DNA from: Tabrizicola sp. TH137
Lineage (GTDB): Bacteria > Pseudomonadota > Alphaproteobacteria > Rhodobacterales > Rhodobacteraceae
Assembly (NCBI RefSeq): GCF_002855575.1
Contig: NZ_PKRQ01000001.1
Span: 1 to 64,000, forward strand
Direction: 5' to 3'
Length of the DNA stretch: 64,000 bases
Every line of letters starts with the position of its first letter. The stretch's first letter is position 1. The notes beneath the pieces are model-generated. The model worked only from the letters and a program-made list of their open reading frames with translations. It was not told where the DNA came from and did no database searches. Positions 48,511 to 63,245 of the stretch are shown here, piece after piece. The translations under genes were made by a program, and so were the position numbers.

Positions 48511-49389
48511 GTGGTGAGCAACGACAGGTCGGAGCTTCGTTGGGGGGTCGAGCAGAGGCTCGAGTTCATCGAGTTCCGCCTGTTCTGGGAGGGGCATGTG
48601 AACCGCAGCGATGTGATGACGCAGTTCGGGCTGTCGGTGAACCAGGCGTCATCCGACCTGAGCCGCTACATCGGCCTCGCCCCTCATAACATGGACTACG
48701 ACCGCAGCCTGCGGACCTATGTGCGCCAGCCGGGCTTCAGTCCGGTGTTCGACAAGCTTGATGCCGGTCGCTACCTCGCCCAACTGCGGTCGGTCGCCGA
48801 CGGCATCCTCGATCAGGACGATTGCTGGATCGCAGGACTGCCCGCCTACGATTCCGCCCCCACGCCGGCGCGCGGTGTCGATCCCGCAACCCTCCGGTCC
48901 GTGGTCGACGCGATCCGCCGATCCGAGGCGATCGAGGTGCAGTATCAGTCCCTGTCCAACCCGGAGCCCCGGTGGCGCTGGATCGCACCGCACGCCATCG
49001 CCTTCGACGGCTTCCGCTGGCACACCCGCGCATTCTGCGTCACCGACGAGGTGTTCAAGGATTTCCTGCTGTCCCGGATCCTCGACATCCGCGCATCGCG
49101 CGGGTCCGACGTTCTGGCCGAGCACGATCAGGACTGGCACACCTTTGCAACGCTGGAAATTGGCCCCCATCCAGCCCTATCCGATACGCAGGCCAAGGTT
49201 ATCGCGCTCGACTACGGCATGAGTGGCGGCAAGGCTGAGATCAGCGTTCGACGGGCGCTGCTTTACTATGCGCTCCGTCGGCTTGGGCTCGATACCGATC
49301 CTGCTGCCAGGAAGCCCCAAGACCAGCAGATCGTGCTTTTGAACCGTGACGCGATCCTCGGCCGCCAAGGTCAGGCAGGGGAGCAGTAG
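48511..49389 (+). CDS. WYL-domain transcriptional regulator (BrxR/CapW-like)
   Basis: A 292-residue protein from tandem GTG codons (48511 or 48514) after GGGAG. An N-terminal winged helix-turn-helix (about 15-75: RLEFIEFRLFWEGHVNRSDVMTQFGLSVNQASSDLSRYIGL) is followed by a WYL domain (about 125-200: AIEVQYQSLSNPEPRWRWIAPHAIAFDGFRWHTRAFC) and a C-terminal WCX-like extension. BrxR/CapW regulators repress defence operons until infection. It is 8 nt upstream of the giant helicase gene, heading the operon. The protein is typical in size for the family. Confidence 0.9.
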   Translation: MVSNDRSELRWGVEQRLEFIEFRLFWEGHVNRSDVMTQFGLSVNQASSDLSRYIGLAPHNMDYDRSLRTYVRQPGFSPVFDKLDAGRYLAQLRSVADGILDQDDCWIAGLPAYDSAPTPARGVDPATLRSVVDAIRRSEAIEVQYQSLSNPEPRWRWIAPHAIAFDGFRWHTRAFCVTDEVFKDFLLSRILDIRASRGSDVLAEHDQDWHTFATLEIGPHPALSDTQAKVIALDYGMSGGKAEISVRRALLYYALRRLGLDTDPAARKPQDQQIVLLNRDAILGRQGQAGEQ

Positions 49390-49397
49390 GATTTTCC

Positions 49398-52300
49398 ATG
49401 AAAGCTTTCGAATTCGATCACAATCTCATCGACTCCTATGCGCGTTTTTCGCGGTCGTTCAGCACCATCCGGGCACAGGACATCGCCGCCGAGGTCACGC
49501 GCCAATATGACGACGGCCGCTTCTGGCCCGACGCCCTGCTTTCGCTGAACCCCAGGTTCCTGTCAGGCCCCACGGTGGATGACCTTGTCGCATCGGGGGA
49601 TCTGGACGAGGCAACGGCCCGGATTTTCCGGATCGGTGCCACGCCCATCCGGTTTCACCGGCACCAGGCGCAATCCATCGCCAAGGCGCGGGCGGGTCAA
49701 AGCTTTGTTGTAACGACGGGCACTGGCTCGGGGAAATCCCTGTGCTTCTTTGTCCCTGTCGTCGATGCCATCGTGCGTTCGCGCAAGGCCGGGCAGCCGC
49801 GCAAGACGCGCGCCATCATCGTCTACCCGATGAACGCCCTGGCAAACAGCCAGATCAAGGAAATCGAGAAGTTCATTTCCCAATCCGGGTTGCCGGACGA
49901 GCTGAAGCCGGTGGTGCGGCGCTACACGGGCCAGGAGAGCCAGGAAGAGCGCCAGCGGATCGCTGACAATCCGCCCGATATCTTGCTCACGAACTTCATG
50001 ATGGCCGAGCTGCTTCTGACACGGCAGGACGCCCTTGATACCAAAGTCATCGACAATGCCAGCGGGCTCGAGTTCATCGTACTCGACGAGTTGCATACCT
50101 ATCGCGGGCGCCAAGGCGCCGATGTCGCGATCCTGGTGCGCCGCCTTCGGAACCGCTGCGCACCGGCCAAAGCGCCGATCTGCATCGGCACATCGGCCAC
50201 CATGGCAAGCGAGGGATCAGAGGCCGGTCGCGCGAAAGCAGTGGCCGATGTCGCCTCGCGCCTGTTCGGGGCGTCTATCGGCCCCGATGCCGTCATCGAT
50301 GAATCCCTTCAGCGCGCGACTGATGACGGCCTGAAGCTGGAAGATGTTCGGCCGCAGCTCGCGACTGTGCTTGGCAGCGACCTGCCGGAAACCCTCACGG
50401 ATGAGGCGCTGCGACGCCATCCCCTCGCTGTCTGGGCCGAGCTGGCGATCGGCCTTGATGACGGCCAGGAACTGAAGCGCAAGAAGCCTGTCCCGTTCGA
50501 CGATGCTGTAGAACAGCTTGCGCAGGACAGCGGCCTCGACAAGGAAACATGCCGGAGAGGTTTCGAGCAATTCCTGACGCGCGTCAGCCTGCCAGAAACC
50601 GAGCGCGGCGGCGAAGGGTCCGGCGCCTTCCTCGCATTCAAGCTGCATCGCTTCATTTCCGGTGCCGGAGAGATCTTCACGACGCTGACGGGGCGCCCGA
50701 GGCGTGTCCTGTTCGAGGGCCAGTTGGAGGATCCCGATGCCCCCGGCCATCGCCTCTATCCGACGCGGTTTTGCAGGGAATGCGGTCATGAAGTTCATGT
50801 CGTCACCAAATCCGAGGATGCCGACGGGCTTCGCTTCCTGCCCAGAAACATCGATGACACACCGATCCCAGACCCGGATGGCGATGTCGCCGGCTATCTG
50901 ACGCCCGTTGGCGGAAATGACCCGGACTACGCCTTCACTGGCGAGGTGGAGACCTACCCGGAAGATTGGCGCGAAGAGCGCAATGGCATCGAACGCCTGC
51001 GCGCCAACCGCAAAGGCCGACTGCCCGAGCAGGTCACGGTGCGACCCGATGGACGCTACAGCCCGGACGGCGTCAGTTTCTGGTTTATTCCGGGCAAGTT
51101 CGGGTTCTGTCCCTGCTGCCTTTATCAACCCCATCCGAGCATGCGGGAGCGCAGCAAACTTGCGGGCCTTTCGGGTGAAGGCCGAAGCTCGGCGACCACT
51201 CACCTTGTGTCGACCGCCCTAGAATGGATGAATGGCGATGCCAGCGGCGTTCCCGCCGAGAAGCGAAAGCTGCTCGGGTTCACGGACAACCGCCAGGACG
51301 CCGCCCTTCAGGCAGGACATTTCAACGACTACCTGTTCGTAAGCTTGCTTCGCGGCGCCATCCTGCGTGCTATCATCGACGCAGGGTCGGACGGCATGGC
51401 AGAGGATGAGTTCGGCCTGCGGGTGGTGAAAGCGCTCGGCTTCACGGCATCGAACAAGGACTCGCGCATCCATTGGATGTTGGATCCCGAAGCTGGCGCC
51501 GTGGTGCGTGAGGATGCCCAGCGTTCACTGGCCAAGGTACTGGCCCATCGGGTCTGGACGGATCTGCGGCGGGGCTGGCGCTATACGAATCCCAGCCTGT
51601 CGGTCCTGAAGCTGGTCGACGTCGAATTCATCGGGCTCGACGACATCGCGCAGGATCGGGAGGCCCTGATGGCGGTACATCCGGCGCTCGGGGACTTGGA
51701 TGCAGGAGCCTGCAAGAAGCTGCTCAAGGAAATTCTCGGGGCACTGCTTGAAGGGCTCGCGGTCAGCACCGAGGCCCTTGATCTGACCGTTCTCGACACG
51801 GTCGGCCAAAAGTCGCGGAACCTGTTGCGGGCCCCCTGGGCAATCGATCAGAAGGAAACGCCCCGAAGCAGGTCGACCCTGTTCCTGCAGGCGCCCGGAA
51901 AGGATCGTGTCGGGCTGCGGGAAGAGCAGACCATCATACGCGCCGGGCACAACTCCCGGATCGGCCGGTCGATCAACCGCAGGAGCATGATCGGAACGAA
52001 GCTGAACAAGGACGAATACCTGGTCGTGATGACCGGCCTTCTCGAACTGATGGCACGCGAAGGTCTGGTCTCGCTTGTCGAGATCGAGGCTGATCTGCTC
52101 GGGTGGCGGTTGTCGCCTTCAGCAGTTCGACTGGTCCCCGGAGAAGCTGTCCGCACCGGACAGTCGCAGGGGAACCGGTATTTTCACGATCTCTACAACG
52201 CCATCGCGACCGACCTGAAACGGGGCCGGAGCACATACTGGGGTCTGGAAGGTCGTGAACATACCGCTCAGGTTTCGCAGAGGCAGCGCGAGTGGCGGGA

Positions 52301-62473: not shown

Positions 62474-62480
62474 GGTTCAG

Positions 62481-63245
62481 GTGATGATTCAGTCGCCCCA
62501 GAGCTTCGTCGTCTCTCAGGAATGCCAGAAGGTCGCCTGGCAGAACGGCTATCGCCGCGCCTTGGGCGAAGCGGACGGCTGGGTGCGCTACGGGTCCACC
62601 ACCGCGAAGGGCACGGTGTGGTTAGCCGCGGCCGGGCACGATGGGCCGTGGTTTCTGGCCCTCGATCATCTTGGCATCGCCGAGGATCTGAACCTGCCCA
62701 AGGCCGACCTGCCCGGCCCGGGCCTCGTGCGATATGCCTTCCCGAACCTGACCGCGCTATATGCCGTGATGCCTCGGGTCTACCAGTTGGGCGTAACGCT
62801 GCCCGATGGCCCGCTCGAGGAATTCCGTGCGGCCGTAGCCGACCTGCCCAAGAGCACCGAGGCCGAGCGGCTGATCATCCAGCGCGTTGGCCAGAATATC
62901 TTCCGCGACCGGCTGATGACCTACTGGCAAGGCCGCTGCCCGCTGACCGGGATCACCGATCCGGCGCTCTTGCGCGCAAGCCACATCATCGCCTGGAAGG
63001 ATTGCGCCAGCGACGCTGACCGGCTGGACGTGCATAACGGCCTGCTGCTTTCGGCCCTTTGGGATGCGGCCTTCGACCGGGGGCTGGTGACCTTCGATGA
63101 TGACGGCCTTCCGCAATTCTCGCCAAAGCTGAGCGAGACGGCGCGCGCAGAGCTGCGCTGGCAATCTCCCATCCCGCTCACCGACAAACACCGCGCCCGC
63201 CTTGTCTGGCATCGGACAGAAGCCTTTGAGGAGATCGCGCCATGA
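62481..63245 (+). CDS. HNH endonuclease
   Basis: A 254-residue protein read from GTG 62481 (ATG at 62484 is equally possible) after GAGG. The C-terminal HNH domain has RCPLTGITDPALLRASHIIAWKDC and LDVHNGLLLSALWDAAFDRGLVTFDDDG, with the two histidine/asparagine blocks of the HNH_2 type. The N-terminal half (GYRRALGEADGWVRYGSTTAKGTVWLA) is uncharacterised and may sense DNA. It closes the operon 7 nt after the metallopeptidase and is the only obvious nuclease of the unit; it could be the effector, in the place held by DrmC elsewhere. Confidence 0.88.
   Translation: MMIQSPQSFVVSQECQKVAWQNGYRRALGEADGWVRYGSTTAKGTVWLAAAGHDGPWFLALDHLGIAEDLNLPKADLPGPGLVRYAFPNLTALYAVMPRVYQLGVTLPDGPLEEFRAAVADLPKSTEAERLIIQRVGQNIFRDRLMTYWQGRCPLTGITDPALLRASHIIAWKDCASDADRLDVHNGLLLSALWDAAFDRGLVTFDDDGLPQFSPKLSETARAELRWQSPIPLTDKHRARLVWHRTEAFEEIAP

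Follow-up and report, generated by a model that had tools for sequence, protein, structure and literature searches.

An ARMADA Type I-like operon of Tabrizicola sp. TH137 with a predicted exchange of a helicase-fused Vsr nuclease for a separate HNH gene

The stretch of DNA analysed here (the window) comprises the 64,000 nucleotides at positions 1 to 64,000 of contig NZ_PKRQ01000001.1 from Tabrizicola sp. TH137, and at window positions 48511-63245 it carries an operon of six genes that probably represents a variant of the anti-phage system ARMADA Type I. An initial annotation, made from the letters alone, had described six rightward and closely packed genes, and this description holds: all six open reading frames (ORFs) lie on the + strand with zero internal stops, being separated in operon order by 8, 4 and 2 nucleotides and then, at the fourth junction, by a 4-nucleotide overlap. 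The features of the operon are the following, the evidence being given in brackets.

48457..48489, +, candidate WYL operator 5' of the WYL gene, CCCA-N5-TGGG then GCGCAT-N7-ATGCGC, presumed role (inverted-repeat scan)
48511..49389, +, WYL-domain regulator, 292 residues, CapW/BrxR-like repressor by analogy (ORF; Pfam WYL 43.5 bits)
49398..54569, +, YprA-family helicase, 1723 residues, DruE-like, ARMADA Type I helicase (ORF, PADLOC, Pfam, relatives)
54315..54566, +, Vsr-type nuclease remnant at the helicase C-terminus, about residues 1640-1723, catalytic residues absent (alignments A5 and A6, column check)
54574..57339, +, SNF2/RapA-type helicase, 921 residues, DrmD/BrxHII-like (ORF, PADLOC, Pfam, NCBIfam)
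57342..61238, +, PglX/DrmMI-like adenine methyltransferase, 1298 residues (ORF, PADLOC, Pfam, motifs)
59694..60941, +, methyltransferase region presumed to recognise the target, about residues 785-1200, exchanged among close relatives (identity profiles)
61235..62473, +, M78 (IrrE/ImmA-like) zinc peptidase, 412 residues, HELAH and EVEAE motifs, occupant of a variable slot (Pfam, motifs, relatives)
62484..63245, +, HNH_2 nuclease, 253 residues, start revised from 62385, final operon gene (Pfam, homologue alignment, structure model, profile search)

The domain identities first given to the six proteins are all confirmed by Pfam, which places in gene order WYL; DEAD, Helicase_C and MZB (DUF1998); SNF2-rel and Helicase_C; Eco57I / N6_Mtase; Peptidase_M78; and HNH_2, and no PLD domain was found by Pfam in any of the six, in agreement with the earlier statement that a PLD nuclease gene is missing. 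Characteristic motifs are intact in the YprA helicase (GTGSGKS, DELH), the SNF2 protein (DDVGIGKT, DEAH), the methyltransferase (DPACGSGHF, NPPW), the peptidase (HELAH) and the HNH protein (SHI, HNG). When read from 62385 the HNH frame overlaps the peptidase gene by 89 nucleotides; the start at ATG 62484, 10 nucleotides past the peptidase stop, is likelier, since this is where the homologues align. Chance can be excluded as the origin of the core, as the succession of YprA, SNF2 and methyltransferase genes and then an HNH gene on the same strand recurs in 71 distinct loci, the window included.

As for the family, the text of the preprint by Bell et al. (2025, PMC12458937) defines ARMADA by a YprA helicase of Druantia-like type that is accompanied by BrxHII-like and PglX-like genes; in Type I these stand in the order YprA, BrxHII-like, PglX-like. 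This is the order of the present operon, whose lineage, Pseudomonadota, is also shared, and profile scores assign its first helicase to the same group: the DruE models are best in PADLOC (up to 270 bits), above DpdJ (91 bits) and DrmA (58.7 bits), with MZB and DEAD present. The initial annotation had rather seen a DISARM relative in which DrmA and DrmB form a single chain, and had guessed that a recently described DISARM-related variant might cover it; the guess was right, the variant being ARMADA, and the kinship extends to the SNF2 protein and the adenine methyltransferase, which are related to DrmD and DrmMI of class 1 DISARM, but the gene order is that of ARMADA Type I and the operon is not a DISARM derivative. 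Indeed, a true DISARM variant with joined DrmA and DrmB is very improbable: the SNF2 protein does match DrmD (286 bits in NCBIfam, below the curated cut-off of 610; 255 bits in PADLOC) and the model nearest to the methyltransferase in PADLOC is DrmMI (253 bits, for a model that gives no cut-off), but the helicase scores only 16.3 bits against the NCBIfam DrmA model, whose cut-off is 999, and no DrmB model appears among the 25 best of its 38 PADLOC matches. We have thus rejected a fused DrmA-DrmB on the profile scores, which favour DruE; the alignment that the initial annotation proposed as a check goes, in spirit, against its reading, the helicase aligning best to DruE and next to DpdJ, both above DrmA. 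According to the preprint text, a single-chain helicase is usual in the YprA family, the split form being typical of DISARM (PMC12458937). Class 1 DISARM differs further by its PLD nuclease DrmC which, like the DrmA and DrmB pair, was not found in the operon. The SNF2 protein matches over its full length, with 625 bits, the PADLOC model PDLC02853, which is labelled DpdE; on an ARMADA SNF2 protein such as that at 54574-57339 (+) this label may mislead the annotation of such loci.

Other known systems fit less well. The nearest helicase family by profile score is that of Druantia; the operon differs in having SNF2 and methyltransferase genes, which Druantia is not known to contain. ARMADA Type II has the same three core protein families, and a Type II-like locus of Haematobacter shares with the window a WYL gene and, following the methyltransferase, an M78 gene; however, Type II has the order SNF2, methyltransferase, YprA and a GajB-like helicase, fused to a RelE-like domain, and neither is seen here, there being no UvrD-type gene among the six of the operon by PADLOC and Pfam. 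No Pfam match at E≤0.01 to the PglZ phosphatase-like domain or the BrxC ATPase of BREX was obtained among the six proteins.

We speak of a variant, and not of a plain ARMADA Type I member, because the built-in nuclease does not conform: the preprint text gives a predicted active, fused C-terminal Vsr nuclease for both ARMADA types (PMC12458937), whereas the window has V, R, S and S in place of the catalytic residues, the remnant domain being retained, and an HNH gene stands at the operon end. The earlier proposal that DrmC had been lost and then replaced does not apply, as the nuclease of ARMADA Type I is this fused Vsr domain, here decayed. In the text of the preprint, its supplement not being covered, 'HNH' and 'WYL' occur solely in the reference list and 'peptidase' and 'protease' nowhere; a literature search on ARMADA in combination with HNH, Vsr or YprA showed, among the papers listed and again without that supplement, none on a variant with a dead Vsr domain and an HNH gene.

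The relationship between the two nucleases was analysed across relatives, designated below by our own locus numbers (L). Helicase matches were found in 249 plasmid records, 67 of which cover at least 80% of the protein, in 7 of the 385 genomes sampled from the class (E≤1e-50), in 14 of 398 of the phylum (E≤1e-100) and in 15 of 247 from a sample of the acidobacterial phylum (locus L058), and 80 genome loci were collected via the SNF2 gene as the best 80 of 559 relatives. Helicase pieces below 400 residues, C-termini at contig ends, pieces without the late C..C motif and duplicates were excluded before counting, which left 120 distinct helicases whose C-terminus is intact. Of these, 90 were scorable for both Vsr state and HNH; the other 30 (16 dead, 14 active) had less than 4 kb after the methyltransferase or an unclear gene order. 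The motif call took in loci whose cysteine motif is a variant form, as well as a PDL motif (L096); L174, dead by regular expression, retains the D-D pair by alignment column and belongs to the unscored loci. Outside the counts stand L209, with a truncated helicase and no adjoining SNF2 or methyltransferase gene, and the viral contig L210, with an active Vsr domain and no HNH match within 4.6 kb past the methyltransferase. Two metagenome-assembled genomes titled Hyphomonas and Thauera (L018, L019) carry identical operons, from a recent transfer or a binning error.

Among the 90 scorable loci, 71 combine a dead Vsr domain with HNH, 18 have an active domain and no HNH, none has an active domain with HNH, and a single one has a dead domain and no HNH; a looser search, at E<1e-4, also gave no HNH-family match in the active-Vsr loci. 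In the tails beyond the DUF1998 cysteines, the active set keeps E, D-F, D-G, H and D invariant (A6, 30 sequences), and not one of these E-D-D-H-D positions is invariant in the dead tails (A5, 65 sequences). The two sets of tails are homologous (hhalign probability 100, for an alignment that takes in the DUF1998 part). By alignment columns in 107 full-length helicases, 0 of 67 HNH-bearing rows retain the central D-D pair, versus 18 of 19 rows without HNH. The order YprA, SNF2, methyltransferase, HNH is found in 71/71 of the HNH-bearing loci. A ninety-first case, Hydrogenimonas L006, was seen first as a dead tail with the methyltransferase cut at the start of the plasmid record, and its HNH gene was later found across the origin. 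From these comparisons, the helicase's fused Vsr nuclease domain has decayed in this branch, and a separate HNH gene appears to stand in for it. We give a probability of about 0.68 to the overall reading, namely that the window holds an intact ARMADA Type I-like operon, predicted to act against phages, from a branch with a swapped nuclease.

A number of observations weigh against this reading. Sampling favours this branch, as the 80 loci are those whose SNF2 genes best match a set of seeds that are mostly of the HNH kind, and the association is phylogenetically clustered and may reflect a single event, all scorable HNH-bearing helicases lying on one 75-row branch. The comparison set is heterogeneous: of the 18 active loci without HNH, 9 share the gene order up to the methyltransferase, 5 have it reversed and in 4 the profiles did not identify the partner genes. 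The dead domain without HNH occurs in Kozakia L004, where an IS21 element directly follows the methyltransferase gene. A model of the dead tail has no PDB match at E≤0.001, Vsr structures included. HNH relatives also occur outside ARMADA (L185, L186, L208), and in the preprint text no Vsr mutation is reported, the cutting step being predicted even in canonical ARMADA (PMC12458937).

In a tree computed without the tail columns, the full-length HNH-bearing helicases (67/67) fall on the 75-row branch with a support of 99. L006 groups beside the active L134, a placement that would imply a second swap; both branches are long and compositionally odd, and in an approximately unbiased test a single HNH-bearing clade, against two origins, is not rejected (p 0.15). 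The Vsr/HNH pattern therefore goes back to one or two events in evolution and not to 90; the large number of loci speaks for a stable state, not for a repeated origin.

The HNH protein itself yields a confident AlphaFold model (mean predicted local distance difference test score 95.6), whose best Foldseek match is VcaM4I (PDB 6yex), an EVE-HNH modification-dependent endonuclease (E 6e-9, template modelling score 0.41, root-mean-square deviation 17.5); the match spans both domains, but not as one rigid body. By profile search VcaM4I is matched over the HNH domain alone (residues 123-252, E 1e-28), and H167 aligns with H224, the ββα-Me histidine of VcaM4I, in a position invariant in 65/65 aligned sequences. 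The likeness is thus one of HNH domain and catalytic histidine position; the N-terminal half has no sequence match to VcaM4I and its further Foldseek matches are weak. We considered an EVE-type sensor in this half and rejected it for want of sequence support, the profile match being confined to residues 123-252. According to the available text on VcaM4I (PMC7897488), the H224A mutant is inactive, the free HNH domain is toxic and the linker helix is autoinhibitory, which by analogy makes it plausible that the free HNH protein is gated here.

These features bear on a different explanation, in which HNH is an added helper, for example one that cuts modified phage DNA, and the Vsr residues were lost in the same ancestor for reasons unconnected with it. 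The nearest solved relative is indeed a modification-dependent enzyme over the HNH domain, the association may go back to a single ancestral event, and stand-alone HNH copies exist; however, not one scored active-Vsr locus carries HNH, the possible second origin in L006 pairs the same two changes, and the match to VcaM4I leaves out its EVE sensor, so that we take a helper role as unlikely. With regard to the distribution of the gene, HNH is covered over at least 80% by 16 plasmid records, 13 of which also have the helicase, and in the class sample its near-whole profile is matched in 4 of 385 genomes, 3 of them with the helicase, another 12 matching the HNH half alone. Two of the three plasmid records that do not also have the helicase are L186 and L185. 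The copy in L186 is a lone HNH gene adjoining a TIR gene. On the P. versutus plasmid (L185, 10011-12765) an SMC gene is followed by HNH with no methyltransferase gene in the 12 kb upstream, resembling what might be left of the 3' end of the ARMADA operon.

A different type of variation is found in the methyltransferase. In pairs of loci with helicases at least 90% identical, its median identity is 91% in the N part, 36.5% in the 400 residues after NPPW and 80% in the last 80 residues, and those 400 residues fall below 60% identity in 43 of 51 pairs (27 loci). Between L044 and L032, the latter an HNH-type relative carried by Paracoccus denitrificans DSM 413, the helicases and the HNH proteins are 99% identical and the region after NPPW 35%. 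Such a pattern is expected if a target-recognition domain has been exchanged, and it speaks for the methyltransferase as the part that sets sequence specificity.

The interval between the methyltransferase and HNH genes is likewise variable. In the 71 loci it holds an SMC-like ATPase in 35 (3 with a GmrSD-type gene too), is empty in 13, holds an M78 peptidase in 7 and an HD gene in 4, single cases being GmrSD, UDG-like, CBS, DUF932 and UvrD-type genes and the remaining loci having other or unassigned content. The seven M78 loci, of which one also has an HD gene and one also a UvrD gene, include the window, whose peptidase was counted by hand as a longer antisense ORF masks its gene. In PADLOC the SMC gene comes out as LmuB-like and the HD gene as dGTPase-like; for the slots of L101 and L105 PARIS (AriAB) was tried and rejected, as the profiles favour HEC-03/NsnB and PDC-M25. 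An SMC gene in the slot goes along with a long methyltransferase (1454-1631 residues in 34/34 single-ORF cases), those without SMC having at most 1355 residues in 30/32. Five loci with an active Vsr domain have SMC genes as well, so that the SMC partner probably predates the nuclease swap. The two extra genes of the initial annotation, protease and HNH, are thus both present but unequal: HNH is nearly constant in the branch and the peptidase is one of many slot occupants. The neighbourhood survey likewise found the four-gene core to co-occur, and the six genes not, as the peptidase is absent from most relatives. The M78 peptidase was rejected as a defining gene, being in just 7/71 HNH-bearing loci and lying away from ARMADA in 2 of the 3 matching genomes out of 385 sampled. 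An M78 homologue also lies on a viral contig (L218, 21070-22071), downstream of a restriction-like gene set with no YprA match.

A WYL gene of the window's family stands upstream in 13 of the 71 HNH-bearing loci. The repeat arms found 5' of the window's gene also precede the WYL gene in the ARMADA Type II locus of Haematobacter, and L027, L032, L035, L044 and L047 have weaker arms of a related form. On that Haematobacter plasmid (L183, 3045-21319) the genes stand in the Type II order, the WYL gene is of the window's family and closely similar, and the methyltransferase is followed directly by an M78 gene. The available text of PMC13373217 states that CapW/BrxR repressors are released by single-stranded DNA and that the protease CapP, activated by it, cuts CapH; a CapW/CapP-like role for WYL and M78 is, by analogy, a lead and not a result. 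It would cast the M78 peptidase as an activator which, switched by single-stranded DNA like CapP, cleaves a repressor, perhaps WYL, the two forming a control pair. The CapP and CapW precedents (PMC13373217) and the joint presence of WYL and M78 in the window, L009, L047 and the Haematobacter locus, whose WYL gene and upstream repeats match, speak for such a pair, but a WYL gene of the window's family is absent from the M78-bearing L034, L052, L054 and L083, M78 homologues are found outside ARMADA loci too, and WYL proteins reportedly respond on their own to single-stranded DNA (PMC13373217); we therefore put this forward tentatively, as an idea with somewhat less than even prospects.

Taken together, the most likely mode of action would be a methylation-guided defence in which two helicases engage unmarked DNA and an outsourced HNH effector cuts it, every step being predicted from sequence comparisons. 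The WYL repressor would hold expression down until stress is signalled. Through its exchangeable recognition region the PglX-like methyltransferase would read a short DNA motif, and it would mark host DNA; on unmarked phage DNA it would engage together with the SNF2 and YprA motors, which would translocate along the DNA. The recruited HNH protein would then cut in place of the helicase's dead Vsr domain, on which it may dock, and the M78 peptidase would be a plug-in gene, most likely regulatory, which would cut a repressor or gate a partner when DNA damage is signalled. A parallel may be found in the cooperation of the Druantia YprA helicase with the HNH-containing ZorE of Zorya (available text of PMC13192584). 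For ARMADA Type II, the preprint text reports that E. coli is protected from phage without growth arrest, and that all four genes and the NPPW motif are required (PMC12458937). Because the mutations in that text lie in ATPase and methyltransferase motifs and not in the nuclease, and because the nuclease activity of DruE is described as unneeded for synergy against T3 (PMC13192584), one may also conceive an effector that does not cut, the helicases blocking phage replication and both Vsr and HNH being dispensable. We consider this improbable, as the active Vsr residues are retained in 18/18 scorable active loci without HNH and the HNH catalytic residues are invariant, so that some nuclease is under selection.

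The operon closes a 27-kb stretch of defence-like genes flanked on both sides by phage genes. The left flank (window 1-34000) has phage structural and replication genes (portal, terminase and tail by PHROGs), and so has the right flank (contig C11, about 63400-102000), as judged from ORF sequence alone. This stretch, operon included, is probably mobile cargo, since it sits between phage genes and is bordered on the left by a serine recombinase gene. Its other features are as follows.

34873-36339, serine recombinase, at the left edge of the island
36861-43524, +, type I-like set in a row: GmrSD-like protein (Orf5/HEC-06), HsdR-like helicase and HsdM-like methyltransferase
43564-45482, -, DUF5131 gene with a TcmP-like neighbour, as also in L095 (29308-30890)
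45963-46571, -, 202-residue ORF overlapping the end of the dCTP deaminase gene, no PADLOC or Pfam match
46505-48154, -, strong match to the anti-phage dCTP deaminase model, divergent from the operon (PADLOC 527.8 bits)
63396-63798, -, two small overlapping ORFs resembling an Rz/Rz1 spanin pair, the longer matching phrog_27122, of unassigned function in PHROGs

In Nocardioides the same pair as at 43564-45482, annotated as TcmP and phage Gp37/Gp68, comes directly after the ARMADA/McrBC genes.

On a broader view, ARMADA Type I may be modular, with a constant double-motor core and an exchangeable recognition region, gene slot and nuclease; HNH would dock on the Vsr remnant, the swap would have happened more than once, separately in Hydrogenimonas, and the slot would be a cassette site that gains defence or control genes, a picture that, taken as a whole, is rather unlikely. 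As the preprint text reports ARMADA protection to be shown and the cutting step to be predicted (PMC12458937), a dead built-in nuclease next to a retained free HNH protein constitutes a natural swap experiment on whether, and with what, ARMADA cuts DNA. The exchangeable recognition region would offer a direct handle on the discrimination of self from non-self, and the variable slot presents a defence operon that hosts other defence-like genes internally.

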